64,000 nucleotides of DNA, taken from the NCBI GenBank assembly GCA_002696035.1, contig NZQV01000020.1, forward strand, positions 46,202 to 110,201. The letters run 5' to 3'. Positions 32,364-51,487 of the stretch are shown here, piece by piece. The notes beneath the pieces were generated by a model, which saw nothing but the letters and a program-made list of their open reading frames with translations, made no database searches and was not told the DNA's origin. How positions within the stretch are numbered: position 1 is the first letter of the stretch; each line of letters begins with the position of its first letter. This DNA is from Balneola sp. GTDB taxonomy: Bacteria; Bacteroidota; Rhodothermia; Balneolales; Balneolaceae. Made by a program: the position numbers and the translations under genes.

Positions 32364-32497
32364 TAGTTTATTTTGTTGTTAACCAACAGGTTGATATAAT
32401 TAGCATAGTTAAATAACCTAAGAACGACTCGTTAAAAACTGAGGTCGGTGAGGGCCGGTAATTGAAGCCGGCAGCATTCAGAATTATAAATGTTTAC

Positions 32498-34606
32498 ATG
32501 AAGCACAAAAAATTAGCAAAAGAACTTGGACTCTCAGATGTATATGCAATTGCAACCGGGGCTATGTTCAGTTCCGGATTTTTCTTACTTCCGGGCTTAG
32601 CTGCCGCTGAAACCGGACCTTCGGTCGTTTTAGCTTATCTGGTATCGGGTATCATTGTGCTGCCTACGATGTTTAGTGTGGCTGAATTGGCTACGGCCCT
32701 TCCGCGATCTGGTGGAACTTATTACATCATTGACCGAAGTCTTGGGCCTATGCTGGGCACCATTGGAGGGTTTGGATCCTGGTTAGCGCTGGTGCTCAAA
32801 AGTGCGTTCGCTCTCATCGGGATGGGGGCTTACATCTCTATTTTCTATGATGTGAATATTTTATACGTCGCAATCTTCCTAACCATAGTGTTTGGGATCC
32901 TGAACATTGTTGGAGCAAAAGAAACAACCTGGCTGCAAAAAGTATTAGTGGCTGCGCTTGTAACTATCATGTTTTTCTACATCATTCAGGGGGTTTTTCA
33001 AGTATTCTCTATGGATGTTTTCGCCGTAGCAGAAAAGCAATTCACCCCATTTTTTACGGAGGGTGTATTTGGTTTCTTTGCTACTGTTGGTATGGTTTTC
33101 GTTTCCTATGCCGGGCTCACCAAAGTGGCCAGTATAGCGGAAGAGGTGAAAGATCCTGACCGTAATATTCCACTTGGTATGTTCCTCGCTATCGGTACTG
33201 CGGTGGTCGTATATGTAGTTGGGGTGTATATTATGGTTGCCCTGCTTGATCCCGCCGCCTTCCGCGAAGATCTGACTCCCGTGGCTACAGCCGGAGAGGT
33301 GTTTTTGGATTGGTTGCCTGAACCGGGTGGTCTTATTTTAGTGGTAGTAGCTGCTGTGGCCGCTTTTGCCTCCACCGGAAATGCCGGAATTATGTCGGCA
33401 TCCAGATATCCGATGGCCATGGCGAGAGATAAATTGATCAACAAGCATTTTGCAACCGTTGGTAAACTTGGAACTCCGCACTGGTCAGTTATTGGAACCG
33501 TTGCGTTGATGCTATTTTTCTTACTGGCCTTTAACGTGGCAGAGGTGGCTAAGTTAGCTTCAGCTTTTCAGTTATTGCTGTTTGGATTGCTGAATTTGGC
33601 AGTCATTGTGATGCGGGAAAGTAAGATCGCGGAATACGATCCCGGGTTTAATTCTCCCTGGTATCCGTGGATTCAGATCATTGGAGTGATCTTTTCCATT
33701 ATTCTCATTTTTGAGATGGGCATCTTGTCGATTCTTTTCACCGTTGCGGTCTCGGCTGCATCTATCATATGGTACAAATATTATGCGCAGGATAAAGTTG
33801 AGCGGCAAGGAGCTATTTTCCATGTCCATGCCCGACTTGGGGAGAACAAAGATCAGGGACTGGAAGGTGAAATGAGGGGGATCCTTCGCGAGAAAGGGTT
33901 ACGTCAGGAAGATCCATATGAAGAACTTGTTTCCAGGGCGGATGTACTAGAGTTTGATTCAGAGACCGATTATGATACCATTTTCAGGGAATCAGCGGAA
34001 TGCCTGGCCGAAAAACTCAGTCTTTCTGTTGAAGAACTTCGGGAGCTGTTTATGACTTCTGAAGAAAACACTGCTATCCAGATCGCAGATGGAGTAGCAT
34101 TAAATCATGCCAGGTTGAAAGAAGATATCTCTCCGGAGCTTGTACTTGTACGGATCAGGGATGGGTACAGTAAAGAGAAGATCAACAAACGAGCTAAAGG
34201 AAAATCAGGAGACGGTAAACTACATTCCATTATTTTCTTTGTCAGTTCAGAGGCAAATACGGGTCAACATCTAAGAATTCTGGCTCACATCGCTGAGATG
34301 GTGGGCACTAAGAACTTCCTGCAACGTTGGGTAAATGCTGATAATGAAGAGGAAATCAGAGAAATACTCTTAAGAGACGAGAGATTCATCAAAATTACTC
34401 TAAGTCCGGACAATAAAACTCAACAATATATTGGCAAGATGATCAAAGAAGTTTCCTTCCCGGGACAAAGTCTGATCACGATCATACGCAGAAATGGAGA
34501 GATCAAAATTCCACATGGAATTACGGTGCTTCAGGAAGGTGATGAACTTTCTGTGATTGGAGAAGTAGAAGACATCGACGAGGTCAAAAAAATGCTCAAA
34601 GAGTAG
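32498..34606 (+). CDS. APC-family permease fused to PTS EIIA-2 and RCK_C domains
   Basis: 702 residues from the ATG at 32498; the earlier TTG frame is not used. The N-terminal 430 residues form about 12 transmembrane helices of the amino acid-polyamine-organocation type (GAMFSSGFFLLPG near the start). The cytoplasmic tail has an EIIA-2-like domain (about 480-630), with GVALNHARL holding His537 at the phosphoacceptor position and a typical HLRILAHIAEM helix. An RCK_C/TrkA-C domain (633-702) with YIGKMIKEVSF, IIRRNGEIKIPHG and LQEGDELSVIGE ends the protein. RCK_C domains bind c-di-AMP in other transporters. It could import amino acids or potassium (KimA is an APC protein). A GCCGG/CCGGC hairpin (32454-32472) lies in its 134-bp leader. 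Confidence 0.88.
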   Translation: MKHKKLAKELGLSDVYAIATGAMFSSGFFLLPGLAAAETGPSVVLAYLVSGIIVLPTMFSVAELATALPRSGGTYYIIDRSLGPMLGTIGGFGSWLALVLKSAFALIGMGAYISIFYDVNILYVAIFLTIVFGILNIVGAKETTWLQKVLVAALVTIMFFYIIQGVFQVFSMDVFAVAEKQFTPFFTEGVFGFFATVGMVFVSYAGLTKVASIAEEVKDPDRNIPLGMFLAIGTAVVVYVVGVYIMVALLDPAAFREDLTPVATAGEVFLDWLPEPGGLILVVVAAVAAFASTGNAGIMSASRYPMAMARDKLINKHFATVGKLGTPHWSVIGTVALMLFFLLAFNVAEVAKLASAFQLLLFGLLNLAVIVMRESKIAEYDPGFNSPWYPWIQIIGVIFSIILIFEMGILSILFTVAVSAASIIWYKYYAQDKVERQGAIFHVHARLGENKDQGLEGEMRGILREKGLRQEDPYEELVSRADVLEFDSETDYDTIFRESAECLAEKLSLSVEELRELFMTSEENTAIQIADGVALNHARLKEDISPELVLVRIRDGYSKEKINKRAKGKSGDGKLHSIIFFVSSEANTGQHLRILAHIAEMVGTKNFLQRWVNADNEEEIREILLRDERFIKITLSPDNKTQQYIGKMIKEVSFPGQSLITIIRRNGEIKIPHGITVLQEGDELSVIGEVEDIDEVKKMLKE

Positions 34607-36245: not shown

Positions 36246-37721
36246 CTACCTGAAATATTTATTAAAGAAGCCTTTTCCTGCATCTTTAAACTCAAGTGAA
36301 AGATTAAATACCCAGATGATGGCTATATATAGAATGGTCATCAATACAGAACGAATCAGGATGTCTATATAAATATTCTCAAATGCAGGTATCGTAAATG
36401 AAATAAGCAGTACAAATACACCATTCAGGATCATAGCTAATGTACGCCAGCTAAAGGGTTGTATAGAGAACTTTATCCACACAAAAACAAGTTTCATAAG
36501 GTTATATGTAAAAATAGATGAGGCGGTAGCAAGTGCCGCTCCAACAATCCCATAAAGAGGAATGAGAATGATATTTGTAATGATTGCAACTACCACTAAA
36601 AAAAGTGCAAAGATCAGATCAAACCGGTAATAGTCTGAGGAGATAAGAATTTGGCCGTTAGCTCCACAAATCAGATCAAACAGATTGGCCATGCCTATGA
36701 TCAAAATAACAATGCTGCCGGCAGCATACTCCTGTGGAAGCATTGAATAAAGGTTATCCATATTGGCCCACACCCCGATAAATAACAAAAATCCAACCAA
36801 AAACTGATTCAGGGAAGTTTGTTTATAAACTTTACTGATGTAATCCATATTGTCAGCTTCAAAAGATTTGGCGATCAGTGGAAGAGAGATCTTTGACACA
36901 GACTTTCGGGGAATAGAAATGACAGAACCAACATAAAATGCAATAGCGTAAATACCGGTTTGGGAAAGTCCTTCGTAAGAACTCAACATAAGCATATCGA
37001 TGTTTCCCACAATCATCATAGTAAGTCCACCAAAAAAAGAATAGAGGCTATAGGTTCCCACCTTCTTAATAATAGGCTTTGTCAGGATGTCTGAGGAAAG
37101 GTTGAATTTGAGAAAATCTTTTTTAATCCCATAAATCGTCATAAACAGGAACTGAAGCGCGTGATTCAGCACAAAGATGATCACAAATACTTTAAAAGAA
37201 ATGAATTCAAAATAGAATAAAACCAAATCGACAATTACAACAAGTCGTAGTAGAATTTCCTGAGAAAAGGAAGCAAATACAGTATCAAGGAGTGCGCTTA
37301 TATAACTTTTTATTGTGCCATATAGTGCAGAAAATAACACCAAGGGAAGGATGTAATAATAATATTGAGAGATAAGAGGGGTTTCTTGATAATAGCTTAT
37401 AATAAAATCTTTAAAGAAGATGAAGAAGGCAGAAAAAATCAAAAAGCTGAACAAAATAGGCAGGCAAAAGAGGGTAAAAATCCCTTTTGGTTCCTGCGCT
37501 TTTTTAGAAAGAAAGGGAAAATATTTTATGATAGAACTTGGTAGCCCCATACTAATGGTTTGGGCTCCAATAAACATAACAGCAAGCATGGTTCTGGTGA
37601 GCCCAAACTGATCAGTATCAAGTATATTTGGAAAAAGCTTTATGGTAGAAATAAAGCCAATAATGACCCCCAGATAGGATACGAGAGCATTTCTAACACT
37701 TTGTTTAACAATTATTCCCAA
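36246..37721 (-). CDS. Wzx-type polysaccharide flippase
   Basis: A 491-residue integral membrane protein with about 14 hydrophobic segments and little soluble sequence, of the MATE/polysaccharide-transporter (Wzx/RfbX, MOP) group. The GLxRTMLAVMFIGAQTISMGLPSSIIKYFP region matches the start of such lipid-linked oligosaccharide flippases. It would move the repeat unit across the inner membrane for glycan assembly. It opens a glycan locus and diverges from the aminotransferase at 37870; the sequence here is visibly more AT-rich than housekeeping neighbours. Confidence 0.85.
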   Translation of the reverse strand: MGIIVKQSVRNALVSYLGVIIGFISTIKLFPNILDTDQFGLTRTMLAVMFIGAQTISMGLPSSIIKYFPFLSKKAQEPKGIFTLFCLPILFSFLIFSAFFIFFKDFIISYYQETPLISQYYYYILPLVLFSALYGTIKSYISALLDTVFASFSQEILLRLVVIVDLVLFYFEFISFKVFVIIFVLNHALQFLFMTIYGIKKDFLKFNLSSDILTKPIIKKVGTYSLYSFFGGLTMMIVGNIDMLMLSSYEGLSQTGIYAIAFYVGSVISIPRKSVSKISLPLIAKSFEADNMDYISKVYKQTSLNQFLVGFLLFIGVWANMDNLYSMLPQEYAAGSIVILIIGMANLFDLICGANGQILISSDYYRFDLIFALFLVVVAIITNIILIPLYGIVGAALATASSIFTYNLMKLVFVWIKFSIQPFSWRTLAMILNGVFVLLISFTIPAFENIYIDILIRSVLMTILYIAIIWVFNLSLEFKDAGKGFFNKYFR

Positions 37722-37869
37722 AAGGCTTTTTATCTCTAAGGTTAAGCAGTACTAAATATGAAGGTACAGATTGTCTATGTTTTTTAAGATATGAATTGGT
37801 AACATAGTATGTATAATATGTTGCTGTTTTTTCAATAGTATTGAAGTTTGAAAACTTTGAGTGCTTTTT

Positions 37870-38949
37870 ATGATTTTGATTACAAAACCTTTTTTACCTC
37901 CCCAAAAAGAATACGAGGAAATGTTAACGGGAATATGGAATCGTGAATGGATCACGAACCACGGCCCATTGGTACAACAGCTTGAAGAAAAGCTTGAAGC
38001 TTATCTAAGGGTCAGAGACCTGCTTTATGTAGGAAATGGAACCATTGCTCTTCAATTTGCTATTAGATCACTTAATATCACCGGAGAAGTTATTACAACA
38101 CCATTTAGTTATGTGGCCACTACCAGTAGTTTGGTGTGGGAACGGGTTGAACCGGTTTTTGTAGATATTGATCCTTATTCCCTTAACCTGGATCCTGAAA
38201 AAATTGAAGCTGCTATAACTGATAGGACCTCTGCTATTCTTGCTACCCATGTATTTGGCAATCCTTGCGATGTTGAAGCAATTCAGGAAATTGCCGAAAA
38301 ACATCAGTTGAAAGTTATTTATGATGCAGCCCATTGCTTTGGGACTACCTACAAAGGTGGCTCTGTTTTTGATTGGGGGGATGTTAGTACTTGTAGTTTC
38401 CATGCTACAAAAATATTTCAAACCATAGAAGGAGGTGCAGTAATCTCCCAAGATGAGTCTTTAATGGAGCGCATGTTTTTCATGCGTAATTTTGGCCATG
38501 ATGGTCCAGAGACATTTAATGGGGTAGGCGTAAATGGAAAAAACTCTGAGTTTCATGCGGCAATGGGTTTAGTGAACTTGCGCTATATTGATAAACTCCT
38601 TGAACGACGGAAAAAGCAATATCTGAGATACGAAGAGGAGTTTGATTCCAGCCCCATACAAGCACTTCAGTTGATTGACCGGAAAGGATATAATTATTCT
38701 TATTTTTCTGCGGTATTTGAAAGCGAAAAAGTTATGGGGCATGTAAAAAAAGAGTTAGAGAAAAAGCATGTTTATCCAAGACGATATTTTTATCCCCCTC
38801 TCAATAAATTGGAATATGTATCAGGTGAAACACCCATTAGTGAATCGATTTCCTCTCGAGTTCTGTGTTTACCATTATATCATGAATTGAAACCAGAGGA
38901 ACAAGGCCTTGTAATTGGTACCATCAAAAAAGCTTTAGGGAATGTCTGA
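37870..38949 (+). CDS. DegT/DnrJ/EryC1-family sugar aminotransferase
   Basis: A 359-residue PLP enzyme from the ATG at 37870 (an earlier GTG three codons upstream is possible). Fold type I blocks: GNGTIALQFAIR near the N-terminus, VYDAAHCFGTTY, and the PLP lysine Lys181 in HATKIFQTIEGG, with an FGHDGP loop behind it. The family transaminates keto sugars on nucleotide carriers, giving amino sugars for surface glycans. Its stop overlaps the sulfotransferase start by 8 bp, so they form one operon. The amine it makes may be the substrate of the acylation cassette at 41935-45251. Confidence 0.92.
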   Translation: MILITKPFLPPQKEYEEMLTGIWNREWITNHGPLVQQLEEKLEAYLRVRDLLYVGNGTIALQFAIRSLNITGEVITTPFSYVATTSSLVWERVEPVFVDIDPYSLNLDPEKIEAAITDRTSAILATHVFGNPCDVEAIQEIAEKHQLKVIYDAAHCFGTTYKGGSVFDWGDVSTCSFHATKIFQTIEGGAVISQDESLMERMFFMRNFGHDGPETFNGVGVNGKNSEFHAAMGLVNLRYIDKLLERRKKQYLRYEEEFDSSPIQALQLIDRKGYNYSYFSAVFESEKVMGHVKKELEKKHVYPRRYFYPPLNKLEYVSGETPISESISSRVLCLPLYHELKPEEQGLVIGTIKKALGNV

Positions 38950-39820
38950 ATACATGATTTTTATACTGGGAAATCCAAGATCCGGGACTAGTCTATTACG
39001 GCTAATGCTCACTCATCACCCGGAGATATGCATCCCGCCGGAATGTGGATTTATACAATGGTGGCATTCAAAATATGGAGAATGGTCTGAAAGGGATTCA
39101 GTCAATGAAAATAAAGTAGAAGAATTTGTCACGGATTTATCAACATCACGAAAAATAGAAGACTGGGAGTTGGACTATAAGAACTTAAAAGCCTCAATTC
39201 TCGAACAGACCCCAAAGTCTTATGCCGAATTGTGTTACCTGGTGGTAGAAAGTTATGCCCGGCAACAAGACAAAGATCCCAAATATTTGGGGGATAAGAA
39301 TAACTACTATTTAGATCATCTTCCGCTGATAAAATCGATCTATCCTAAAGCTAAATTTATAGCCATTATTAGAGATGGCAGGGATGTAGCATGTTCCTAT
39401 AAAGGGATAAAAAAGCTGGATACCAATTCTCCTTATAAACCCAAGCTTCCGACCGAAATTTCTGCTATTGCAAAGGAATGGATGGCTAATATTGAGAAAG
39501 TTGATTCATTTTTTGAAAAGCTTCCTGATAGCCAAAAATTTTGGGTACGATATGAGGATCTAATTACCTCATCTGAGGAAGAGTTAACTAAGATATGCGA
39601 ATTTCTGAACCTGCCGTATGATGCTAAAATGATTCAGTACTATAACACAGATATACAGCAGCAAAAGGAACCTTCCTCTACTTTAGACTGGAAAAAGAAA
39701 ACCTTGAGAAAACCTGATGCTTCTAATGCCGGTAATTATCTTGAGGAACTTTCAGAAAAAGAAGTCCAACGCTTTGGCAAAATCGCATTGAAGCAGTTAG
39801 AAAGATTTGACTATGCGTAA
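38942..39820 (+). CDS. PAPS-dependent sulfotransferase family protein
   Basis: A 292-residue protein with the 5'-phosphosulfate loop NPRSGTSLL (11-19) and a later AIIRDGRDVACSY segment like the 3'-phosphate-binding motif. It belongs to the sulfotransferase_3/Stf0-like superfamily that transfers sulfate from PAPS to carbohydrates or lipids. In this setting, between an aminotransferase and glycosyltransferases, a sulfated surface glycan is plausible, as in many marine bacteria. It overlaps both neighbours (8 bp each), indicating tight translational coupling. Acceptor unknown. Confidence 0.88.
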   Translation: MSEYMIFILGNPRSGTSLLRLMLTHHPEICIPPECGFIQWWHSKYGEWSERDSVNENKVEEFVTDLSTSRKIEDWELDYKNLKASILEQTPKSYAELCYLVVESYARQQDKDPKYLGDKNNYYLDHLPLIKSIYPKAKFIAIIRDGRDVACSYKGIKKLDTNSPYKPKLPTEISAIAKEWMANIEKVDSFFEKLPDSQKFWVRYEDLITSSEEELTKICEFLNLPYDAKMIQYYNTDIQQQKEPSSTLDWKKKTLRKPDASNAGNYLEELSEKEVQRFGKIALKQLERFDYA

Positions 39821-40724
39821 TTCAAAAAGCGAATATGCAGTTAGCGTACGCTTAATGTGCTATAACCATGAAGATTATATTCGTCAGGCCATGGATGGTA
39901 TCATGATGCAAGAGACGGATTTTAAAGTTGAAGTGGTAATAGGGGATGATTTCTCGCCAGATGATACGCTTAAGATCATCAAAGAATATGAGAGTACGGA
40001 GAATATTCACATAAAAATATTACAGCGAGAAAAGGGAGATGCCTATTGGACTGAAAGGCAAAAAAGAGGAAGGCTCTATAATTTTCAAAATATCCTTGAA
40101 AACTGTACTGGAAAATACATTGCTTTACTTGATGGGGATGATTATTGGATTGATCCTCAAAAACTTCAAAAACAATATGATTTTTTAGAAGATCACCCAG
40201 ATTGCTCAGTCTGTTTTACCGCTGCTCAGTTTTATTTTGAGGAAAATCCAGATGAAAAAAAAATATACCGGCCCAAAAAAGCTGAATCAGAAAAGATATA
40301 TGACTTAAAGGATGCTATCATAAAAGCAGGAGACTTTATGATTACGGCAACCATTTTTTTTCGGCAGAAATATGTGGATGAAATTCCGGAGTGGGTATTT
40401 AACTCTCCGGTTGGAGATCTGCCACTATCCCTGTTTGTGGGAACCAGAGGCAAATATGGATACATTGATGATGTAACTTGTATGTATCGGGTAAATGCTT
40501 CGGGATCCTGGAGTCAGCAAATGAATTTTGAGAAAAGAAGAAAACAGGTAGTCAAAATTCTAAAAACCTACGACGACTTCAACGCATATACTGATTACAA
40601 ATACAATAAGCTGGTACAACTGGAAAAAGCCCGGATTCACTTTAACGACAAAAAGTCGATTGTAAAGCGAGTCATTGCCAAAACTCCGCCCGGACGAAAA
40701 ATAAAAGAGTGGTTTGATTTGTAG
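39813..40724 (+). CDS. Family 2 glycosyltransferase
   Basis: A 303-residue GT-A glycosyltransferase from the ATG at 39813 (a TTG two codons before it is less likely). VSVRLMCYNHEDYIRQAMDGIMMQ, GDDFSPDDTLKII and ALLDGDDYW, with its metal-binding Asp residues, mark the GT2 nucleotide-sugar-binding half; the C-terminal half is less conserved. It transfers a sugar to the growing repeat unit, linkage unknown. It overlaps the sulfotransferase stop by 8 bp and ends 3 bp from the convergent GT4 stop. Confidence 0.9.
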   Translation: MRNSKSEYAVSVRLMCYNHEDYIRQAMDGIMMQETDFKVEVVIGDDFSPDDTLKIIKEYESTENIHIKILQREKGDAYWTERQKRGRLYNFQNILENCTGKYIALLDGDDYWIDPQKLQKQYDFLEDHPDCSVCFTAAQFYFEENPDEKKIYRPKKAESEKIYDLKDAIIKAGDFMITATIFFRQKYVDEIPEWVFNSPVGDLPLSLFVGTRGKYGYIDDVTCMYRVNASGSWSQQMNFEKRRKQVVKILKTYDDFNAYTDYKYNKLVQLEKARIHFNDKKSIVKRVIAKTPPGRKIKEWFDL

Positions 40725-40727
40725 CTG

Positions 40728-41804
40728 TTACCATTGAACCATTTTAGAAACTATTTCTCTTAATCTATCGGCTCTTTTTTCAAGTGAAAACTCATCAATA
40801 ATTCGCTGACGGGCTTTTTTACGGAGGGATGGAGATTGAGAATGCGCTTTTTCTATGGATGAGGCAATTTCTTTCGGATCCGGTTTGTGTACAGTATATC
40901 CGGCATCCCCAATTCCATGTGGAATACCAAAAACAGGACTTCCTACCGGAACACATCCGCACATCATGGCCTCACAGAGTACGTTGGGAAGTCCCTCAGT
41001 CCGCGATAATTGTGCGTAAACGGAGCTTTGGTGATAGATAGTTGCAAGCTCGTGTCGGGCTACGGGTGGTATGAATTCGAGATTTTCTCCCGGTTTGTAC
41101 CGTGCTTTTAACTTGGGTACAAACTTAGGATCCGCACCCACAATCTTGAATGTAAAATCGGGTAGCAACTTCGAAGTTTCGATAAACAGATCCCATCCTT
41201 TTATAAGTGCAGTCCTGTGATTGGAGCATAAAGCAGCAGTGCTAACTATTTTTTCTCTTTGAGCGGGACTGGCTTCCCACGCCTTCGGATCATAACCGGT
41301 TGGTAAAGCTTTCCAATTGTTATTAAATCCAGGGATATTATGAGAGACTCCGTTTGGATGAGCTTCTCCCCAGTGTTTAGCCACGGAATCTGTTTTGATC
41401 AAAGTTCTATCAACAGGCAACAGTAAAGAGCTGTTTTTCAACACATATTTTCCAAGAGGAGCGCGCCACCGGCTGCAAAAAATGCCATAATTCAATGACT
41501 CGATCTTATTGCAGTCAAACCCACCTAGTACGGTGATGGACGGAACTCCAAACCATTTGGAAAAAACAGTGGGAAGAAATGAATGATAGTCTGAAAACCA
41601 GCAGTAAATGAGGTCTGCATCAGGCATATTATTCAGAAGCCAAAAAACTTGTTGGGCAAAATTTTTCAGCAGAGAAAGTCCCGATTTGGATGCCTGAAAA
41701 TGAAAAATCCTTATTTCCCCGAGAGATTCAAGAATCCGAAGATCTTCTTTTACGAATGAGGATTCTCCAAAATGAATAAAAAGAATGGTTGGTTTTTTTG
41801 GCAT
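40728..41804 (-). CDS. Family 4 (GT-B) glycosyltransferase
   Basis: A 358-residue protein from the ATG at 41804 (preceded directly by a TTG). The C-terminal half holds the GT4 motif RTEGLPNVLCEAMMCGCVPVGSP with the E-x7-E pair, and the N-terminal half the acceptor domain, including a GGFDC loop. It transfers a sugar in the glycan locus. It is convergent with the GT2 gene and shares no visible terminator with it. Confidence 0.88.
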   Translation of the reverse strand: MPKKPTILFIHFGESSFVKEDLRILESLGEIRIFHFQASKSGLSLLKNFAQQVFWLLNNMPDADLIYCWFSDYHSFLPTVFSKWFGVPSITVLGGFDCNKIESLNYGIFCSRWRAPLGKYVLKNSSLLLPVDRTLIKTDSVAKHWGEAHPNGVSHNIPGFNNNWKALPTGYDPKAWEASPAQREKIVSTAALCSNHRTALIKGWDLFIETSKLLPDFTFKIVGADPKFVPKLKARYKPGENLEFIPPVARHELATIYHQSSVYAQLSRTEGLPNVLCEAMMCGCVPVGSPVFGIPHGIGDAGYTVHKPDPKEIASSIEKAHSQSPSLRKKARQRIIDEFSLEKRADRLREIVSKMVQW

Positions 41805-41934
41805 CAATTTGGTTCTGTGACTTCAGCTAACAAAAACCTAAGCAACTTTTCTGAGTGAAACACAATTATCTGTGGGAATTTCTATTTAGGCAGATCCTTT
41901 TTTACCTTGCAAAAAATCAAAAATAAACGGATTG

Positions 41935-42579
41935 ATGGCATTACAAGGAATTAAGAAAATACTCATTCTCGCCCCACACACCGATGACGCCGAGCTGGGT
42001 TGTGGCGGCACCATGGCTCGTTTTTTGGAAGAAGGGATCGAAATTTACGTAGCGGCTTTTTCAACGGCCCGGGCTTCTGTTCCGGAAGGGTCAGATCCTG
42101 ATATTCTCCGAAAAGAATTCATTAAGTCGATGGAGATTTTAGGGGTGCCAGAGGATCACTATTTCATTTATGATTACCAGGTTCGGAAATTGAATTATTC
42201 CAGGCAGGAAGTGCTTGAGGCAATGATAAAGCTTCGCAATGACATTCAGCCTGATCTCGTGCTCTTGCCTTCCGGAAATGATCTGCATCAGGATCATGAA
42301 GTGGTACATAACGAGGGACTTAGAGCCTTTAAAGACAACAGCATTTGGGGATACGAGCTGCCCTGGAATCACGTAACCTTCAACACAGAAGCATTTGTCA
42401 CGCTAAAGCAAAAGCATATGGATAAGAAGTGGGAAATGATGTCAGTATATGAATCTCAGCTTATCAAACAGCGCAATTATTTTACTCGTGAATTTATTGA
42501 AGGTCTCGCGAGAGTTCGGGGCGTTCAGGTGAAAGAAGATTTTGCAGAAGCATTTGAAGTGATTCGCTTGAAAGTATAA
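41935..42579 (+). CDS. PIG-L/LmbE-family sugar N-deacetylase
   Basis: A 214-residue zinc amidohydrolase. The metal motif APHTDDAELGCGG has His15, Asp17, Asp18 and a second ligand set is HQDHE (His118, Asp120, His121). The family removes acetyl groups from N-acetylglucosamine carried on lipids or nucleotides, or on bacillithiol precursors. Here it is the first gene of a four-gene run with an LpxD-like N-acyltransferase, an ACP and a ligase, so it probably exposes the amine that the others re-acylate. ATG at 41935 is preferred over the TTG directly before it. Confidence 0.92.
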   Translation: MALQGIKKILILAPHTDDAELGCGGTMARFLEEGIEIYVAAFSTARASVPEGSDPDILRKEFIKSMEILGVPEDHYFIYDYQVRKLNYSRQEVLEAMIKLRNDIQPDLVLLPSGNDLHQDHEVVHNEGLRAFKDNSIWGYELPWNHVTFNTEAFVTLKQKHMDKKWEMMSVYESQLIKQRNYFTREFIEGLARVRGVQVKEDFAEAFEVIRLKV

Positions 42580-42644
42580 TTCTGATCAAAAGATTTTATC
42601 TTCTTATAGTTTTCAGACAAGAAACTTTTTGAGACCCAAATTGA

Positions 42645-43547
42645 ATGGATAAATTTACACTTGAAGACCTAAAGCAAAACCTATTGGTCGACTTCGACTT
42701 TCGGGGAAATGCAGATATTGATTTCGTCGATAACGTCAAAAGCATTTCAGAGGCAAATGAGCACTCAGTTGTTTGGTGCAGTCCCGACCGTGAAGACAAG
42801 CAAGAATTGGTTGAAAAGACCAAAGCACATCTCATTATTTGCGATGATTCCATTCAGTTTACTGATGCTTTGCTCAAAGAAAAAGGATTCTTTGTCGTCA
42901 AAAATCCAAAGCTGGCTTTTACACGCTTACTTCGGAATATAGCCTCCGAAAACTTCGAGCCCGGAATTCACCAGACGGCAACCATTCACCCCGAAGCGGA
43001 AATTGCGGACTCCGTATACGTGGGGCCGAATTCCTACATCGGGAAGTGTACTATTGGGGAGAATTCAATTCTTCACGGAAACAATTTTGTGTACGATGGC
43101 ACTTCCATTGGCAATGGCGTGGTTATTGAAGCCGGCGCTATTTTGGGAGCCGAAGGTTTTGGACTCGCGAAAACCGATGAGGGCGCCTGGGAGCGATTCC
43201 CTCACATTGGCGGATTGGAAATTCACGACCGCGTTGAAATTGGGGCGGGCACAACCATCGATCGCGGTACGCTCGATAATACCATCATTGGCGAGGGCAC
43301 TAAGATCTCAAAGTCAGCGCATATTTCGCATAACGTCCGCATCGGGAAAAATTGTCTGATCACGGGTTGTGTCGCTATCTCAGGCTCAACCACAATTGGA
43401 GACAATGTATGGATCAGCCCAAATGCTACTATCCTTAATAAGCTAACAATTGGTAATAACGTATTTATTTCGATGGGCGCTACGGTAACACAGGATATTA
43501 AAGATAATTTCCAGGCACTGGGACGAAAAATACTCCCAAAAACCTGA
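42645..43547 (+). CDS. LpxD-like N-acyltransferase (left-handed beta-helix)
   Basis: A 300-residue protein. Residues 1-100 form an LpxD-like N-terminal domain, followed by hexapeptide repeats (about 100-290) such as IHPEAEIADSVYVGPNSYIG. Motif AHISHNVRIG holds His229, the counterpart of the catalytic His of LpxD (usually IAHNV). LpxD itself moves 3-hydroxyacyl groups from ACP to the free amine of UDP-3-O-acylglucosamine; this protein lacks the C-terminal helical extension of E. coli LpxD and lies in a glycan locus with its own ACP, not with lpxC or lpxA. An N-acyl transfer to an amino sugar is therefore likely; lipid A assignment is not. Confidence 0.85.
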   Translation: MDKFTLEDLKQNLLVDFDFRGNADIDFVDNVKSISEANEHSVVWCSPDREDKQELVEKTKAHLIICDDSIQFTDALLKEKGFFVVKNPKLAFTRLLRNIASENFEPGIHQTATIHPEAEIADSVYVGPNSYIGKCTIGENSILHGNNFVYDGTSIGNGVVIEAGAILGAEGFGLAKTDEGAWERFPHIGGLEIHDRVEIGAGTTIDRGTLDNTIIGEGTKISKSAHISHNVRIGKNCLITGCVAISGSTTIGDNVWISPNATILNKLTIGNNVFISMGATVTQDIKDNFQALGRKILPKT

Positions 43548-43563
43548 TCTCAAATTAGTAAGA

Positions 43564-43797
43564 ATGACCATAGAAGAGTTGATCAAAGAAGTGTTATTTA
43601 TTGAAGAAGGAATCGAATTAACTAACGAAACCGGTCCTGAAGACATTGATTCCTGGGATTCTCTGGGACATGTAAACATAATTACAGCGGTAGAAGATGA
43701 ATTTGATATTGAGATTTCACCGGAAGAAATTGGAGAGATCAAGACCATTGGAGATATCAAAAAAATGCTTGCTCAAAAAGACATCAACCCGGAATAA
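43564..43797 (+). CDS. Acyl carrier protein
   Basis: A 77-residue acidic helical protein with the phosphopantetheine site DSWDSLGHV (Ser33), the canonical D-S-L position. It differs from housekeeping AcpP, which usually has a DSLD core (here it is WDSLGHV), and it lies between the LpxD-like gene and the ligase, whose start overlaps its stop by one base (43797). It thus probably carries the acyl group charged by the ligase to the acyltransferase. Confidence 0.93.
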   Translation: MTIEELIKEVLFIEEGIELTNETGPEDIDSWDSLGHVNIITAVEDEFDIEISPEEIGEIKTIGDIKKMLAQKDINPE

Positions 43798-45251
43798 TGC
43801 AGCCGAATTCAATTGTTGAAGGCTTTTTTCGAAGTGCAGAAAATCATCCTGATAAGACTGCGATCATCTGGAAAGACGTACAGATTTCTTATCGGGAAGT
43901 ATCTGAAAACGTGCGAAAAACGGCAACATTTCTAAAAATGAAGGGGGTTGGGAAAGGGGACCGTGTAGCTTTCTACGGAGATAAAAACCCATTTTTTGCC
44001 TATACCTATCTTGCTACCCATTTATTAAATGCGATAGCCGTTCCGCTGGATGTTAAACTTCCTGAAGAGCGCATGCTGGATCTGCTGCAACAGACAGAGC
44101 CCAAAGTGGTGCTTCACCCCACAGAAGCAAATCATCCATTTCCACAATTTCCGTTTGATGAAACTATACTTCAGGAATCTCCCCTTGCGGAGTTCAGCTT
44201 TCCTGAAAAAGAAGACCTGGCTGACATACTTTTTACTACTGGTACAACCGGGAGTGCAAAAGGTGTGAAACTTACCCATCAAAATATTTTAGCTGGGGCG
44301 GTGAATTCCAATCAATATATTGGGAATGATGATTCAGATACAGAGATCATTCCTCTCCCTTTGCATCATGCCTTTGGGCTTCGGCGACTGCGAACCAATT
44401 TATTTCTGGGAGCTACCGTGATCTTGGCAGATGGGTTTATGTTTCCAAAAGTCTTCTTTGATGCTATTGAAAAGCAAGGTGCAACAGGCATTTGTATGGT
44501 TCCCTCAGGCTTTTCCATTGTTAAAAAACTAATGAAAGACCGCTACATTCAGTACTTCAATAAACTGAAATACATTGAGTTTGGCAGCTCTCCCATGAAG
44601 CTGGATGAAAAGCAAGAGCTGGCTGAAAACCTTCCTGATACCCGGATTTGCATGCACTATGGACTGACGGAAGCTGCTGCAAATATCTTCATCGAGTTTC
44701 ATGAAGCGGCTGGTAAGCTGCATGCTTTAGGCAAAGCAAGTCCCAATGTGCAGGTAGCCATTCTAAGTAATGAAGGCCAGGAAAAAGCCATTGGCGAGAT
44801 CGGTGAAATTGTGGTAAAGGGAGATATTCAAACTCCGGGATACTGGAAAAAGCCGGAGCTCACAAAAAAATCGTTCATTGATGGTTGGTTTAAAACCGGG
44901 GACCTTGGGTATAAAGATGATGAGGGATATGTATTTTTAAGTGGTCGCAAAGATGATGTGATCAATATCGGTGGGAAAAAAGTATTTCCTTCTGAAATAG
45001 AAGCGGCTCTAAATCAGCATCCTGCTGTCAAAGATTCAGCTTGTATCTCTATCTCAAAAGGAGATGAGCTTACTGGTGAGAGGATCAAAGCATATCTGGT
45101 GTTGAAAGGAAAAGAAGAACCAACTCCGAAAGAACTTTCTCAGTTTTTGAGAGGTAAACTGGAGCCCTATAAAATTCCGCAGGACTTTCAGTTCATCAGG
45201 AAGATCCCCACTACTTCTTCTGGTAAAAAACAGCGAGATAAGTTAAAGTAG
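43797..45251 (+). CDS. Acyl-AMP ligase / acyl-ACP or acyl-CoA synthetase
   Basis: A 484-residue ANL-superfamily adenylating enzyme. The P-loop TTGTTGSAKGVKL, the hinge-region YKDDEGYVFLSGRKDD and the C-terminal lysine motif TSSGKKQRDK are complete. It activates a carboxylic acid as an adenylate and loads it on a thiol, most likely the ACP whose gene it overlaps by one base. Acid identity cannot be read from the sequence. It is the last gene of the PIG-L/LpxD-like/ACP run and ends exactly where the convergent GT4 stop begins. Confidence 0.93.
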   Translation: MQPNSIVEGFFRSAENHPDKTAIIWKDVQISYREVSENVRKTATFLKMKGVGKGDRVAFYGDKNPFFAYTYLATHLLNAIAVPLDVKLPEERMLDLLQQTEPKVVLHPTEANHPFPQFPFDETILQESPLAEFSFPEKEDLADILFTTGTTGSAKGVKLTHQNILAGAVNSNQYIGNDDSDTEIIPLPLHHAFGLRRLRTNLFLGATVILADGFMFPKVFFDAIEKQGATGICMVPSGFSIVKKLMKDRYIQYFNKLKYIEFGSSPMKLDEKQELAENLPDTRICMHYGLTEAAANIFIEFHEAAGKLHALGKASPNVQVAILSNEGQEKAIGEIGEIVVKGDIQTPGYWKKPELTKKSFIDGWFKTGDLGYKDDEGYVFLSGRKDDVINIGGKKVFPSEIEAALNQHPAVKDSACISISKGDELTGERIKAYLVLKGKEEPTPKELSQFLRGKLEPYKIPQDFQFIRKIPTTSSGKKQRDKLK

Positions 45252-46559
45252 TTATTGAATGGTGGTAAGCATGATGTCTTCCAATTTTTTGGTGAGGTTC
45301 TTGAAACTGTATTCCTCAACTGCATCTTGATCAGGAGTGAACAAAACGTCTCCTTTTTGGGCAGCTTCATATAGAGAAATAATGAATTCCTGAACTCCTT
45401 TTGCATCCTCGTGATCAAAAAAGCCGCCGATATTTGTTTTTTGAACCAACTCCGAGGCCGCACCATCTACCGGACCGATCCCCAAAACAGGATTTCCGGA
45501 GATCATGTATTCAAACACTTTCGTTGACAGCGCAAATTTACTGTTCTTCGTTCTTCCTATGGTTAACAGTAGCAGGTCAGATTTGCTCACCTTCTTCATC
45601 ATTTCATCGTGCGGTATAAATCCGTTAAATCGGGTCTCAACATGGTTAGTGATCGAGGAGATCTCTTCTTTGATGTTTGGGTCAATACTCCCGTAAAACT
45701 CAAAAGCCAGGTTTTGAGCAACCTCAGGCTGATCTTTATCTATAGCCTGTAATGCTTTAATAAATGCAGCAGGGTGTTGGTTGGCCTTTAAACTTCCAAA
45801 ATACCGGATCGTGAATACGTCGTTTTTCCCAGAGGATTTTCCATTGTGAATGATATGATCCGGATCATATCCATTTGGAATCACCGTGGATTTTTCTGCG
45901 ATATCTTCTGCATGTTCTGGGAAAAAACCATTATTGACCAGAGTAATTCTATCTGCCCGGTGCAGTGTTTCTGATTCCAGTTTTTTATTTCGGCTTCGGG
46001 CCCAGTTGCTCTGGGGGTTATCATCGTAATAATAAATATTGGTCCAGGGATCGCGGAAATCAGCCACCCAGGGAAGCCCGCTCCATTCTGCCAGTTTTTT
46101 GGCGATGAGATTTGTGGTAGGAGGAGGAGAAGTAGATAGAATCAGGTCTGGATCTTCTTTGTTGATGATCTTTTTACCCAAGGGAACAGCGAACCATTTC
46201 CAGGTGAATTTAGCATCGGGGATCATCAGGTTTAGCCGCGCCCATACCGCTAATTTCGATTTCCAGTTCTTATCTTTTTGATAAAAAATTGAGGGATTAC
46301 TGGTTTTGGAAGAGTCCTTATTTCCGGAGGAAATCAGTCCGGTTGGCTCGATGATCTTTGACCGATACACTTTACACTGGTTGAGGATCGGGTCGTCCGG
46401 TTCATCCTGCATTCCGGAAGAAGCTTCTTTGGTGGTCAAAATGACAACTTCCCAACCAGATTTAAGTAAGTATTTTACAAATCTGGAAATGCGATAAGCT
46501 CCAACGCCTGCAAAAGGATACCAATAGTAGCTTACTATGAATACTTTTTTGGAAGCCAC
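45252..46559 (-). CDS. Family 4 (GT-B) glycosyltransferase, GTG start
   Basis: A 435-residue protein. I use GTG at 46559, one base after the stop of the YfhO-like gene, rather than an upstream TTG inside it: the protein then begins VASKKVFIVSYYWYPFAGVGAYR, the family N-terminus. Rossmann-type segments VADFRDPWTN and FRIRYFGSLK-like VFTIRYFGSLKANQHP indicate a GT4 of the WsaF/capsule type. It continues the glycan locus on the minus strand after yfhO. Confidence 0.87.
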   Translation of the reverse strand: MASKKVFIVSYYWYPFAGVGAYRISRFVKYLLKSGWEVVILTTKEASSGMQDEPDDPILNQCKVYRSKIIEPTGLISSGNKDSSKTSNPSIFYQKDKNWKSKLAVWARLNLMIPDAKFTWKWFAVPLGKKIINKEDPDLILSTSPPPTTNLIAKKLAEWSGLPWVADFRDPWTNIYYYDDNPQSNWARSRNKKLESETLHRADRITLVNNGFFPEHAEDIAEKSTVIPNGYDPDHIIHNGKSSGKNDVFTIRYFGSLKANQHPAAFIKALQAIDKDQPEVAQNLAFEFYGSIDPNIKEEISSITNHVETRFNGFIPHDEMMKKVSKSDLLLLTIGRTKNSKFALSTKVFEYMISGNPVLGIGPVDGAASELVQKTNIGGFFDHEDAKGVQEFIISLYEAAQKGDVLFTPDQDAVEEYSFKNLTKKLEDIMLTTIQ

Positions 46560-46560
46560 G

Positions 46561-49020
46561 TTATTCGCGGTTTTTAAACAAGGTGAATCCCCAAAAACCG
46601 GCAATTAAAAGTTGGGCAATTACTGCAAACCATTCCAGACGAACGCCAATCACGTATCGATCTGGTAAGAAATGAAGTTTGACGGTATGTTGGCCGTCCG
46701 GAATTTGAAGTCCTCTCAGGAAGTAATTGGTTTTGTATATGGGGATTTCCTCACCATCTAAGGTAGCAGTCCAGCCGGCAGGATAATAAACTTCACTTAA
46801 AACTAAGAAGCCAGGCTCTGAACGGGAAATGTCCAGTGTGATCTCCGGCCCGGTGTATTCGGTGACTTCAACGGAGGCTGTAGTATCAGCTGAGGCCTGA
46901 ATAGATTTCGAAGTTTCGATTACAGCCGTTTGGGAGAAATCCAGCTGCCCGGGCATGAGATAATCATAAGCTTCGGTAGGCTCCTGAACGGTGATCACCG
47001 AATCAACAAAGAAGGCCTTGGGCAGTACGTTTTGATTCTCAAACACCATCCCCTGTTGCCCCCTGAAAGCCTGAGTAAAGCCAGGAAGTGGAAGCTGCTG
47101 TGAGTAGGTAACATACCTTACATTCATGAGATCAAGCAGCTCAGGATTGAAATTCCGGCTTTGGATGTTCAGCGGGCCGTTGCCATACATCACGTCTTGA
47201 ATAACGCTGAGTTTAGAAGCAGAATATCCACCAATAACGGGATAAAAATAGGCGGGTGTTGAACTGCTGTAAGGATCACGAAGCAGCGGAAGTACGCGGT
47301 ATGGATATTCTGTGCCTTCAGAAATACGCTCCTGTATCCAGTTATCTATATCTCGACGTTCTGATTCGAGAATCGTTTTAGCATCTATATTTCCGGCCAC
47401 AATAGAATCTTCTGGGATGTATCGTTTGTCCACACTGATCATGTCGATGGCGACGATCAAAATAAAACCAAATAATGCGGCGCTCGCAGGAATTTTCCCT
47501 GCAAAAGCGAGGTACATCAACCCGGCGGCTATCACAATAATGATAGAAAAGCGAAATATATCAGAGGTCGCTTTTTCTTCGCGAGCGGGAACCATCTGCG
47601 TATTCACATAATTCTGAGCCCGTTGTTGAACTTGTGGGTTATTGGGTTGAACCTGATTTTGCTGAGCAATTTGATTGGCGATATTCTGAACTTCTCCGGG
47701 TCGGGTGAAATCAGAGGAATTAACCTGAATAACTAAGATGACTGCCACAACACCAACAATTCCCATGGGCAGGTATAATCGGCTGAGATCTTTCTTCTTA
47801 TCAGATATGAAATCAATAAACCAGTCAAGTCCAAAGACAGCCACAACACTGTAACAAAAGGCGGTATATATCAGCCAGGTTTCAGGTGCGCGAAATTTAT
47901 CGAAGAAAGGGATATAGTCGAAGGCCAGTTCATTCAATAATCGGAAATTTCCGCCCCATGCAAAAAGGATTCCCAGCGTTCCCGCAGCGAAGAATACGTA
48001 CATCACTTTACTGCGTTCCCGCAATAATGCCATCAAAATAAAAGGGAGGCTTAACGCTCCAATATAGTGCGGGCCTGAAGTAAAAGATTTTGGGCCCCAG
48101 TATTCCGGTGAAGCCCCGCCAAAATAATTTGGTATGATCAGTGTGATGGTCTCCCATATACCCTGCGACCATGCAAAAGCGTAGCTAGTAGAAAGTCCGG
48201 TGGAGTTATCGAGGGCGGAACCACCTCGTAAACTATAATTAGCATATTCCTGAAGGGTTAACAATTTCTGGGCGTGTCCCATAATACCAACGAGTCCCCC
48301 AATCACCAATAAGCCGGTTGTGACCATCCATGGTTTAAGCTGATTCTCTTTGAAAGCTTTCCAGGAATCAAAGACAAATAAGAAGCCCAACAGGTAAAAG
48401 ATGTAGTAGGTTATCTGTGGATGACCGGCACGAAGCTCCATAGTTAGCGCTACAGAAAAAAGCAGGAGTCCGGGGAGTTTTTTCTCTTTCCGGGTAAGTA
48501 GCCAGTAGCCGGCAATGAGCCACGGGACAAAGATGAGGGCTTTGAATTTGGTGTTATGCCCGGCCACGATGATAACCGGGAGGTACGTTGCAAGGCCATA
48601 CATCAAGCTGCCAAATACGGCGCTAAGCTTCCTGAACTTCATTGATATAAGCAAGAAGTACATCCCCGCCAACATTATCCAGTACTCAAAAGCAGGGTAG
48701 ATATTATTGAAGTAGCGGGTAAGATTATTTAGATAGGGCACTACATTTTTTGTAGAAACTACAAAAGAAGGCATTCCCCCAAACATGTTGGTAACCCAAA
48801 GTGGTTCTTTGTCGTAGGTTTCGCGGTATTCAATTACAGATTCAGCAGCCGCACGCCATTGGGTAGTATCGTGACGCTGCAATTCCTGCCCCCCAATAGT
48901 AATGGCTGTAAATAGCACAAAAGGAATGATAAACAAGATCAGCAGCGCAACGATATGTTGACGGCTATCAGGTAGTTTAGAGAAAAAATCTTGGGAAGAA
49001 GCAGGAGCTTGAGAAGCCAT
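46561..49020 (-). CDS. YfhO-family large membrane glycan protein
   Basis: An 819-residue protein with about 12 transmembrane segments and a large extracytoplasmic region (about 530-800), carrying the YfhO-like opening (RHDTTQWRAAAESVIEYRETYDKEPLWVTNMFGGMPSFV) and the later YFPAGWTATLDG-type segment VYYPAGWTATLDGEEIPIYKTNYFLRG (given here only by its first residues: VYYPAGWTATLDG). YfhO proteins are GT-C-like membrane enzymes probably moving sugars to lipid or surface acceptors. It is between gatC (9 bp upstream) and the GT4 gene (1 bp downstream). Confidence 0.85.
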   Translation of the reverse strand: MASQAPASSQDFFSKLPDSRQHIVALLILFIIPFVLFTAITIGGQELQRHDTTQWRAAAESVIEYRETYDKEPLWVTNMFGGMPSFVVSTKNVVPYLNNLTRYFNNIYPAFEYWIMLAGMYFLLISMKFRKLSAVFGSLMYGLATYLPVIIVAGHNTKFKALIFVPWLIAGYWLLTRKEKKLPGLLLFSVALTMELRAGHPQITYYIFYLLGFLFVFDSWKAFKENQLKPWMVTTGLLVIGGLVGIMGHAQKLLTLQEYANYSLRGGSALDNSTGLSTSYAFAWSQGIWETITLIIPNYFGGASPEYWGPKSFTSGPHYIGALSLPFILMALLRERSKVMYVFFAAGTLGILFAWGGNFRLLNELAFDYIPFFDKFRAPETWLIYTAFCYSVVAVFGLDWFIDFISDKKKDLSRLYLPMGIVGVVAVILVIQVNSSDFTRPGEVQNIANQIAQQNQVQPNNPQVQQRAQNYVNTQMVPAREEKATSDIFRFSIIIVIAAGLMYLAFAGKIPASAALFGFILIVAIDMISVDKRYIPEDSIVAGNIDAKTILESERRDIDNWIQERISEGTEYPYRVLPLLRDPYSSSTPAYFYPVIGGYSASKLSVIQDVMYGNGPLNIQSRNFNPELLDLMNVRYVTYSQQLPLPGFTQAFRGQQGMVFENQNVLPKAFFVDSVITVQEPTEAYDYLMPGQLDFSQTAVIETSKSIQASADTTASVEVTEYTGPEITLDISRSEPGFLVLSEVYYPAGWTATLDGEEIPIYKTNYFLRGLQIPDGQHTVKLHFLPDRYVIGVRLEWFAVIAQLLIAGFWGFTLFKNRE

Positions 49021-49485: not shown

Positions 49486-49758
49486 ATGATAAAAAAGAAA
49501 GTAACCATAAAAAATTCGGCGGGACTTCATGCACGTCCTTCAGCTCAGCTTGTGAAATTAGCGAGTAAGTATAAATCAGATTTCTTTATTCACAGCTATG
49601 GATATCGGGTAAACGGGAAAAGTATTTTAGGGGTGATGACGCTCGCCGCGGAACATGGAGCAGAATTGGAACTTGAAGTAGATGGCTCCGATGAGGAAGA
49701 AGCACTCACAGCTATAGAGAAACTGATAGAAGATAAGTTTGGAATGGACGAGGAATAG
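49486..49758 (+). CDS. ptsH: PTS phosphocarrier protein HPr
   Basis: A 90-residue HPr. GLHARPSAQLVK places His15 at the enzyme I phosphorylation site, and NGKSILGVM places Ser46 at the regulatory position used by HPr kinase. It takes phosphate from enzyme I and passes it to EIIA domains. No EIIB/EIIC gene is in this window; the only EIIA-like domain seen is in the permease at 32498. It is 4 bp upstream of ptsI. Confidence 0.97.
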   Translation: MIKKKVTIKNSAGLHARPSAQLVKLASKYKSDFFIHSYGYRVNGKSILGVMTLAAEHGAELELEVDGSDEEEALTAIEKLIEDKFGMDEE

Positions 49759-49762
49759 CATC

Positions 49763-51487
49763 ATGAATGCTGATATTGCCGACACAAAAGAAAAACATTT
49801 TAATGGACGGGGTGTAGGGGTTGGCGTCGGTATAGGCAAGTCTGTAGTGATCGATATTGAATCTGCTGAGGTCGAGCCTAATTCAATTTCTGAAAAAGAT
49901 GTTGAGACACATAAAAAGAAATTTAGCAAGGCGAATAAAGGCCTGACTGAAGAGCTGGAGTTATTGGCGAAGGAATTAACGGATAAAAGTACCCGGGAGA
50001 TCATTGAAGCCCAGTTACAGATCATTCAGGACCCTGAAATTGAGAAAAGTGTCTCGGCAATTATTGAAGAGAAATTGCTGACTGTGGAATATGCCATTTA
50101 CAGCACCTACTGCAAGTTCATTGAGCGGTTAAAGGAAAGTGGTTCCGAATTGTTTAAGCAGCGTATTGTCGATCTTGAAGATATCAGAGACCGGTTGATC
50201 GCAATTGTTTGTAATCACACACATAAACATCCGGTTAAAAAAGGGGATGTGGTTGTGGCTAAGGATATAAGCCCGACAGAACTTGTGGCTTTTTATGAAA
50301 AAGGCATGGCCGGATTGGTGATGGAGAAAGGCGGACCGACCTCTCACGCAGCTATCATAGCGAAATCTCTTGGACTTCCTTGTGTGGTTAGTGTAAAAAA
50401 AGCGACTAAGAATATTGACGCAGGCGAGCAACTTATCCTGGATTCTGAAAGTGGCATGCTGATCTGTCATCCCGATAAAGAAACGCTGAAATCCTACAGA
50501 AAAAAACAGAAAGACCGGCTAAAGTTATCCGCAAGAAAGTGCCGGGAAGTTTTTGAAACCAAAGATGGACACCCATACCAGTTGCTTGCAAATATTGAAT
50601 TTGAGGCGGAACTGCCCAAAGTTGCAGAGCATGGAGCCCGAGGAATTGGTTTGTTGCGAACGGAGAGTTTGTTGTTTGGAAGCCGAATTCGCAAGGGACA
50701 AGAAGATCAGGAAGTATTTTACAGTCACATTTTGGAAGGGACTGAAGGTCCTGTAACCATTCGTTTGTTTGATGTGGGGGGAGATAAAACGACAACACGT
50801 GCCAGCAAAGAGGATAATCCGTTTTTGGGATGGCGCGGGATCCGATTATTGCTGGATGAAAAGCAGCTTCTCCAAAATCAGCTTAAGGCCATTTTGAAAG
50901 TATCCGGAAAATATCCCGGAAGGATTAAAGTCCTGGTTCCGATGGTTTCGGTGATGGATGAAGTAGATAGCATCAAAAAAGAACTTGAAGAAGCTCGGGA
51001 GGCCGTTACCTCAGAAGGATATGCCGTAGATGAAGGTATTCAGCTTGGGTTGATGGTGGAGGTACCCAGCGTAGCAATTTCAGCCAGAAAATTTGCCCGG
51101 GAAGTAGACTTTTTAAGTATCGGCACCAACGATCTCACCCAATATACTATGGCTGTAGATCGCGGTAATGAGCGTATTTCAGCCCTTTTTCAGCATTACC
51201 ATCCATCGGTGCTTCAGCTTATAAAAACAACACAGGAAGGCGCTACTGAGGAAGGTGCAGACCTGAGTGTTTGCGGAGAACTTGCCGGCGATCCTGTTGG
51301 TGTGGCATTTCTCATTGGTGCGGGAATATCTGATCTCAGTATGCTTCCTCACTCCATTCCGGAAATAGCGGATCTTCTCAGTAGCTTTACCAAAAAAGAA
51401 TTTGAAGCGTTCGCAGAATCAGCTCTTAACAGCAGCTCCGACAAGCAGGTCAAAGAATTATTCGAAAAGAGCTTCTGCCAAAAGTAA
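49763..51487 (+). CDS. ptsI: PTS enzyme I (phosphoenolpyruvate-protein phosphotransferase)
   Basis: A 574-residue enzyme from the ATG at 49763, four bp after ptsH; the TTG-started frame at 49739 would overlap HPr. GGPTSHAAIIAKSLG holds the active-site His195, and PEP-binding blocks RLFDVGGDKT, LMVEVPSVAISA, SIGTNDLTQY and SVCGELAGDP are complete. It autophosphorylates with PEP and phosphorylates HPr. With a ptsHI pair and no sugar EII components, the system may be purely regulatory here, as proposed for other Bacteroidota. Confidence 0.97.
   Translation: MNADIADTKEKHFNGRGVGVGVGIGKSVVIDIESAEVEPNSISEKDVETHKKKFSKANKGLTEELELLAKELTDKSTREIIEAQLQIIQDPEIEKSVSAIIEEKLLTVEYAIYSTYCKFIERLKESGSELFKQRIVDLEDIRDRLIAIVCNHTHKHPVKKGDVVVAKDISPTELVAFYEKGMAGLVMEKGGPTSHAAIIAKSLGLPCVVSVKKATKNIDAGEQLILDSESGMLICHPDKETLKSYRKKQKDRLKLSARKCREVFETKDGHPYQLLANIEFEAELPKVAEHGARGIGLLRTESLLFGSRIRKGQEDQEVFYSHILEGTEGPVTIRLFDVGGDKTTTRASKEDNPFLGWRGIRLLLDEKQLLQNQLKAILKVSGKYPGRIKVLVPMVSVMDEVDSIKKELEEAREAVTSEGYAVDEGIQLGLMVEVPSVAISARKFAREVDFLSIGTNDLTQYTMAVDRGNERISALFQHYHPSVLQLIKTTQEGATEEGADLSVCGELAGDPVGVAFLIGAGISDLSMLPHSIPEIADLLSSFTKKEFEAFAESALNSSSDKQVKELFEKSFCQK

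Follow-up and report, generated by a model that had tools for sequence, protein, structure and literature searches.

Predicted exchange of N-acyl groups by a PIG-L, LpxD-like, ACP and ligase cassette in surface glycan loci of Balneolaceae

A four-gene cassette within a surface glycan locus

What would an LpxD-like acyltransferase do next to a PIG-L deacetylase inside a glycan locus? The question arises from a stretch of 64,000 nucleotides of a Balneola sp. contig (hereafter the window), in which a gene for a predicted PIG-L/LmbE-family N-deacetylase (41935..42579, plus strand, 214 aa; the ORF finder chose as its start the TTG at 41932, 3 bases upstream of the ATG) is followed on the same strand by genes for a predicted LpxD-clade left-handed beta-helix acyltransferase (42645..43547, 300 aa), a dedicated acyl carrier protein (ACP; 43564..43797, 77 aa) and a predicted acyl-AMP ligase of the ANL superfamily (43797..45251, 484 aa). 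The genes are spaced by 65 bp and 16 bp, and the last two overlap by one base in TAATG. The initial annotation had described four contiguous same-strand genes, two of them sharing a base, with intact catalytic residues. ORF coordinates and the overlap confirmed the arrangement, the residues of the PIG-L protein (H15, D17 and D18), the LpxD-like protein (H229) and the ACP (S33) were all found at the residue numbers it gave, and the ligase has the full ANL motifs.

Judged by predicted gene content, the surroundings of the cassette are a surface glycan locus between a HisRS gene and the GatC, HPr and PtsI genes (HPr and PtsI at 49486-51487). Upstream lie genes for a Wzx-like polysaccharide flippase (36246..37721, minus strand; PF01943, just under the cut-off), a DegT/DnrJ sugar aminotransferase (37861..38949, plus strand; PF01041), a sulfotransferase (38942..39820, plus strand; PF13469), a GT2 glycosyltransferase (39807..40724, plus strand; PF00535) and a GT4-family glycosyltransferase (40728..41807, minus strand; PF00534). 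A second GT4-family gene (45252..46604, minus strand; PF13439; 53-67% conserved) converges on the cassette, with its constant partner, a gene for a YfhO-family polytopic membrane protein, behind it (46561..49020, minus strand; PF09586). This convergent GT4 gene adjoins the cassette in 12 of 13 cassette genomes, the contig of the thirteenth ending there, and its product is a candidate for the enzyme adding HexNAc. The upstream sugar genes, the DegT gene among them, are exchangeable and vary freely among cassette loci, and the corresponding locus of genome G434 has a full cassette but no DegT; thus, the cassette tracks GT4/YfhO. Elsewhere in the window, at 32462-34606, an amino acid permease is fused to PTS EIIA and TrkA_C domains.

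Conservation of the gene order

We surveyed 394 genomes of the phylum and 92 genomes of Balneolaceae. The order PIG-L, LpxD-like, ACP and AMP ligase held up across genomes, being conserved in 13 of the 92 Balneolaceae genomes (window genome included); these 13 span four genera. Cassette proteins of the 12 further genomes showed 53-77% identity (ACP, 44-70%; PIG-L orthologues, 72-77%), and the slot was constant in all cassette genomes (HisRS...GT4-YfhO-GatC-HPr-PtsI); a Balneola MAG likewise carries all four genes at this position. Within the phylum sample, close LpxD-like orthologues were found in five other Balneolaceae genomes, and orthologues of the ligase and of the LpxD-like protein occurred in an identical set of genomes (6/394). 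The hypergeometric P for this agreement is about 2e-13 and rises to about 1e-7 when calculated on the roughly 47 members of the family, with genomes treated as unrelated in both cases. The exact cassette was seen in one family only, Balneolaceae, in this phylum sample (n = 394).

Predicted activities of the PIG-L protein, ACP and ligase

Profile search placed the first protein in the PIG-L family (PF02585, 74.5 bits against a cut-off of 28.2), and it carries the metal motif of the PIG-L/LmbE superfamily, an HXDD motif (H15-T-D17-D18) plus H121. Its AlphaFold model was poor (pLDDT 58). In bacillithiol and mycothiol biosynthesis, a GT4-family transferase (BshA, MshA) is paired with a PIG-L deacetylase (BshB, MshB), a pairing shared by the cassette locus, whereas the step after deacetylation there adds cysteine. 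Identity of the cassette protein with the bacillithiol enzyme BshB1 was rejected at 62.2 bits against the TIGR04001 cut-off of 182.5, and a separate BshB1 protein of the window genome scored 256.8 bits. One study lists BshB and MshB as PIG-L deacetylases and describes LmbE enzymes as using one metal ion and the HXDD+H motif to hydrolyse N-acetylglucosamine-type substrates (PMC4101496).

The ACP matched PF00550 (25.7 bits against a cut-off of 20.8), and the DSL motif that contains the phosphopantetheine serine, Ser33, is present in all 13 orthologues. The window genome has four carrier-protein matches in all, this ACP included; on another contig (C11, L146:6746-8666), a further polysaccharide-like locus contains a carrier protein with an adenylation-type gene next to it.

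Both AMP-binding domains of an ANL acyl-AMP ligase were found in the fourth protein (PF00501, 226 bits; PF13193, 65 bits), along with the C-terminal lysine motif (SGKK, 475) and the motifs TTGTTG (from 147), YGLTE (288), GDLG (368) and GRKDD (383). When aligned with EntE, MenE and the EntF A domain of E. coli, the protein had no Asp where EntF has FDVS. Since this alpha-amine-binding Asp (PheA 235) is absent, activation of an amino acid, as in NRPS-type adenylation, is unlikely. An arginine-rich motif, HAFGLRR(L/V)R(T/V)NL, is conserved in the ligase orthologues and may, speculatively, hint weakly at a polar or acidic acid. The ligase of G433 lacks the SGKK segment, and in G435 a contig end falls inside the ligase gene.

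Different genes beside a constant PIG-L/GT4 pair

We compared what stands beside PIG-L in related loci, which proved the most telling line of evidence. Two genomes of the same genus, G262 and G398, have PIG-L (84% identical) and GT4 (66-67%) in the same slot with no LpxD-like gene there, and in G262 its place is occupied by WbqC and sulfotransferase genes (L101:9617-11321). In G403, PIG-L (71% identical) likewise lacks an LpxD-like gene and is followed by genes that, judged by eye, look like WbqC and sulfotransferase (L102:10302-12006). At the same locus, G175 has PIG-L and the LpxD-like gene as a pair, with neither ACP nor ligase, and a second PIG-L gene of G434 is followed by FabH, SDR and hexapeptide transferase genes. 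In another Bacteroidota family, G386 has a continuous series of genes for PIG-L, a PglD-like transferase, ACP, AMP ligase and SDR (L133:5514-9324), which looks like an independent assembly built on the same logic. The neighbours of more remote PIG-L relatives are WbqC-like or ATP-grasp genes.

Given such varied acyl or cap genes beside a constant PIG-L/GT4, the simplest account is that PIG-L would free an amine on the sugar added by GT4 and the accompanying genes would cap it. PIG-L and the adjacent GT4 look like a constant core, with an exchangeable amine cap. This suggests a modular route, a constant core with interchangeable capping modules, by which a lineage without lipid A may install chosen N-acyl groups on its surface glycans. 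If PIG-L with WbqC and sulfotransferase means deacetylation followed by N-sulfation, bacteria would have a counterpart to the processing of heparan sulfate. ATP-grasp genes lie directly next to PIG-L relatives in L123, L124 and L127 (Pfam-checked in L124) and could be a third way of capping the amine. In G009, the gene immediately preceding an LpxD-like gene (45% identity to that of the cassette) encodes a polysaccharide-deacetylase-like protein (L056:8428-10046), and the pair may carry out a CE4 variant of this exchange.

A predicted acyl exchange on a surface glycan

We consider it likely that, through the cassette, a HexNAc of the surface glycan loses its N-acetyl group and receives a different acyl group, as the initial annotation had proposed. 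The prediction is supported by the conservation of the gene order, by a lone LpxD-like protein lying apart from orthodox LpxD and the missing lipid A pathway (both below), by the private ACP, by the glycan locus and by the swaps beside PIG-L. In the proposed scheme, the adjacent GT4 protein would add HexNAc to a growing, probably lipid-linked, glycan, and the PIG-L protein, with one metal ion, would remove acetate to leave a free amine. The ANL ligase would adenylate a specific carboxylic acid and attach it to the private ACP through its phosphopantetheine, from which the LpxD-like protein would move the acyl group to the amine by means of His229. We infer from the sequence each of the four reactions and the order in which they occur, the nature of the acid, and an acceptor that is the GT4 product and not a nucleotide sugar; N-transfer is the predicted outcome, N- and O-acylation being indistinguishable at this level. 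Against strict coupling, PIG-L in G262, G398 and G403 does not require the LpxD-like gene.

Alternatively, the cassette may perform two unlinked jobs, in which the LpxD-like protein, ACP and ligase acylate a DegT-made amino sugar in the manner of VioB or QdtC while PIG-L deacetylates something else. The DegT gene four genes upstream of the cassette would fit, as would the frequency of sets combining DegT with a hexapeptide acyltransferase and the presence in the window genome of a DegT set with carrier protein, FabH and MaoC. However, the intact cassette of G434 has no DegT upstream, the DegT proteins found elsewhere are of different types (59% versus 28% identity), DegT has acyltransferase genes of its own adjacent to it in L014, L052 and L097, and the ACP- and ligase-free pair of G175 keeps PIG-L with the LpxD-like gene. 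DegT-coupled acylation was judged less likely than exchange on a PIG-L-freed amine, and we regard the two-job reading as unlikely.

The LpxD-like protein and the absence of lipid A genes

The LpxD-like protein passed the cut-off of the broader model PRK00892 (240.1 bits against 207) and fell under that of the lipid A LpxD equivalog TIGR01853 (218.7 bits against 242.5). Foldseek matches to its AlphaFold model were all LpxD at the top (E about 1e-8, with low TM-scores); this model was moderate (75.7), and from the models we took the family assignment alone. The catalytic His (H239 in E. coli) is H229 and is kept in 13 of 13 cassette proteins. The N-terminal domain is retained, at 24.5 bits under the PF04613 cut-off of 30.8. 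Residue comparison revealed that the aromatic/Asn/Tyr box for uracil is lost, F41, N44 and Y47 being replaced by W44, P47 and K52; the box was assigned by alignment with Chlamydia LpxD, and we also take these residues to be the uracil box from the Chlamydia structure. Relative to E. coli LpxD, D232 is further changed to S, N233 to K and H276 to K, and the C-terminal helical extension is absent, the protein stopping at residue 300 where orthodox LpxD continue. In the tree, the 13 cassette proteins formed one group (91/99) outside the group of E. coli, other proteobacterial and Bacteroidota LpxD (94/98), with some long branches that leave the exact neighbours of the cassette group uncertain. Because it branches outside orthodox LpxD and has lost the uracil box and the C-terminal helices, the LpxD-like protein is, by its predicted features, not a lipid A enzyme.

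These features also bear on the level at which an exchange would take place. The substrates of LpxD and PglD-type enzymes are UDP sugars, and with the N-terminal domain retained, one could picture UDP-HexNAc being converted into UDP-HexN-acyl before glycosyl transfer. The replaced uracil box speaks against it, as does the PIG-L gene staying beside the GT4 gene; moreover, the characterised LmbE deacetylases work on GlcNAc-containing conjugates (PMC4101496). Exchange at the nucleotide-sugar level is thus quite improbable. Still less probable, in our estimate, is that the cassette puts a fatty or membrane-active acyl group on the core amino sugar of a lipid-linked glycan; if true, this would be a non-Raetz route to an N-acylated surface glycolipid in a lineage without a lipid A pathway.

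LpxC was found in none of the 92 sampled Balneolaceae genomes, with working controls, and thus not in the window genome. Searches of the latter returned no LpxB (best 19.7 bits), LpxA (best LpxA-like match 137 bits) or LpxD over the cut-off, the best LpxD-like match lying below it; at 97% completeness, one absent gene of this genome could be a gap, whereas the family-wide absence of LpxC cannot. The whole family appears to be without lipid A. A literature search found no published statement that Balneolaceae lack lipid A, and nothing usable on their LPS in titles and abstracts. Although the nearest solved fold and the nearest family are those of LpxD and the metal site of LmbE enzymes is LpxC-like (PMC4101496), the idea of an orthodox lipid A LpxD with PIG-L replacing a lost LpxC was rejected as close to refuted by the missing Lpx genes, the tree position, the lost uracil box and the presence of the cassette in just 13 of 92 genomes. 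The comparison with true LpxD thereby sided with the initial annotation, placing the protein outside the orthodox branch in a genome without a lipid A pathway. An lpxD annotation of a gene need not imply lipid A.

Relation to described systems

The concept had initially been thought undescribed, which was not borne out, as PIG-L-type deacetylation with acylation is known (PMC4101496, PMC6965331, PMC6105854). In the tunicamycin cluster, tunE encodes a deacetylase, tunC an acyltransferase and tunK an acyl carrier protein (PMC6965331); the tunC product has been called a putative N-acyltransferase, and acylation is the role assigned to tunKL (PMC6105854). It resembles the cassette in joining an annotated N-deacetylase, an acyltransferase and a dedicated ACP in one cluster; however, it is an actinobacterial antibiotic cluster with no AMP ligase among the listed genes, and its acyl groups are drawn from the fatty acid pool. 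In teicoplanin and A40926 biosynthesis, LmbE-type deacetylases (Orf2*, Dbv21) free the GlcNAc amine after glycosylation, and a long acyl chain is added subsequently (PMC4101496). Deacetylation thus precedes acylation as proposed for the cassette, although the products are glycopeptide antibiotics and the available extract describes no LpxD-like enzyme or ACP/ligase pair. The LpxC-LpxD steps of lipid A similarly couple deacetylation to ACP-dependent N-acylation and involve a fold relative, but use LpxC instead of PIG-L and an LpxD with the UDP box and C-terminal helices that the cassette protein lacks.

Local acyl supply in glycan loci is also documented. The Aeromonas flagellin glycosylation island has a local ACP, reductase and AMP-dependent synthetase (PMC7874193), and in V. 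cholerae O1, WbeL is needed for the tetronate that N-acylates perosamine, a 4-amino sugar (PMC3441752); unlike the cassette, neither set has a coupled PIG-L step described in the extracts available. The exact four-gene module was not found in a literature search that missed most subscription papers, and what appears undescribed is the joining of PIG-L, ACP and ligase to an LpxD-clade transferase in a lineage that lacks lipid A. Such a paired enzyme family could be useful for linking PIG-L subfamilies to glycan structure. The window genome also has a second glycan locus (C23, L145:6027-9130) with a carrier-protein match, FabH, a MaoC-like dehydratase and an LpxA-like transferase, adjoining dTDP-sugar genes and a DegT gene.
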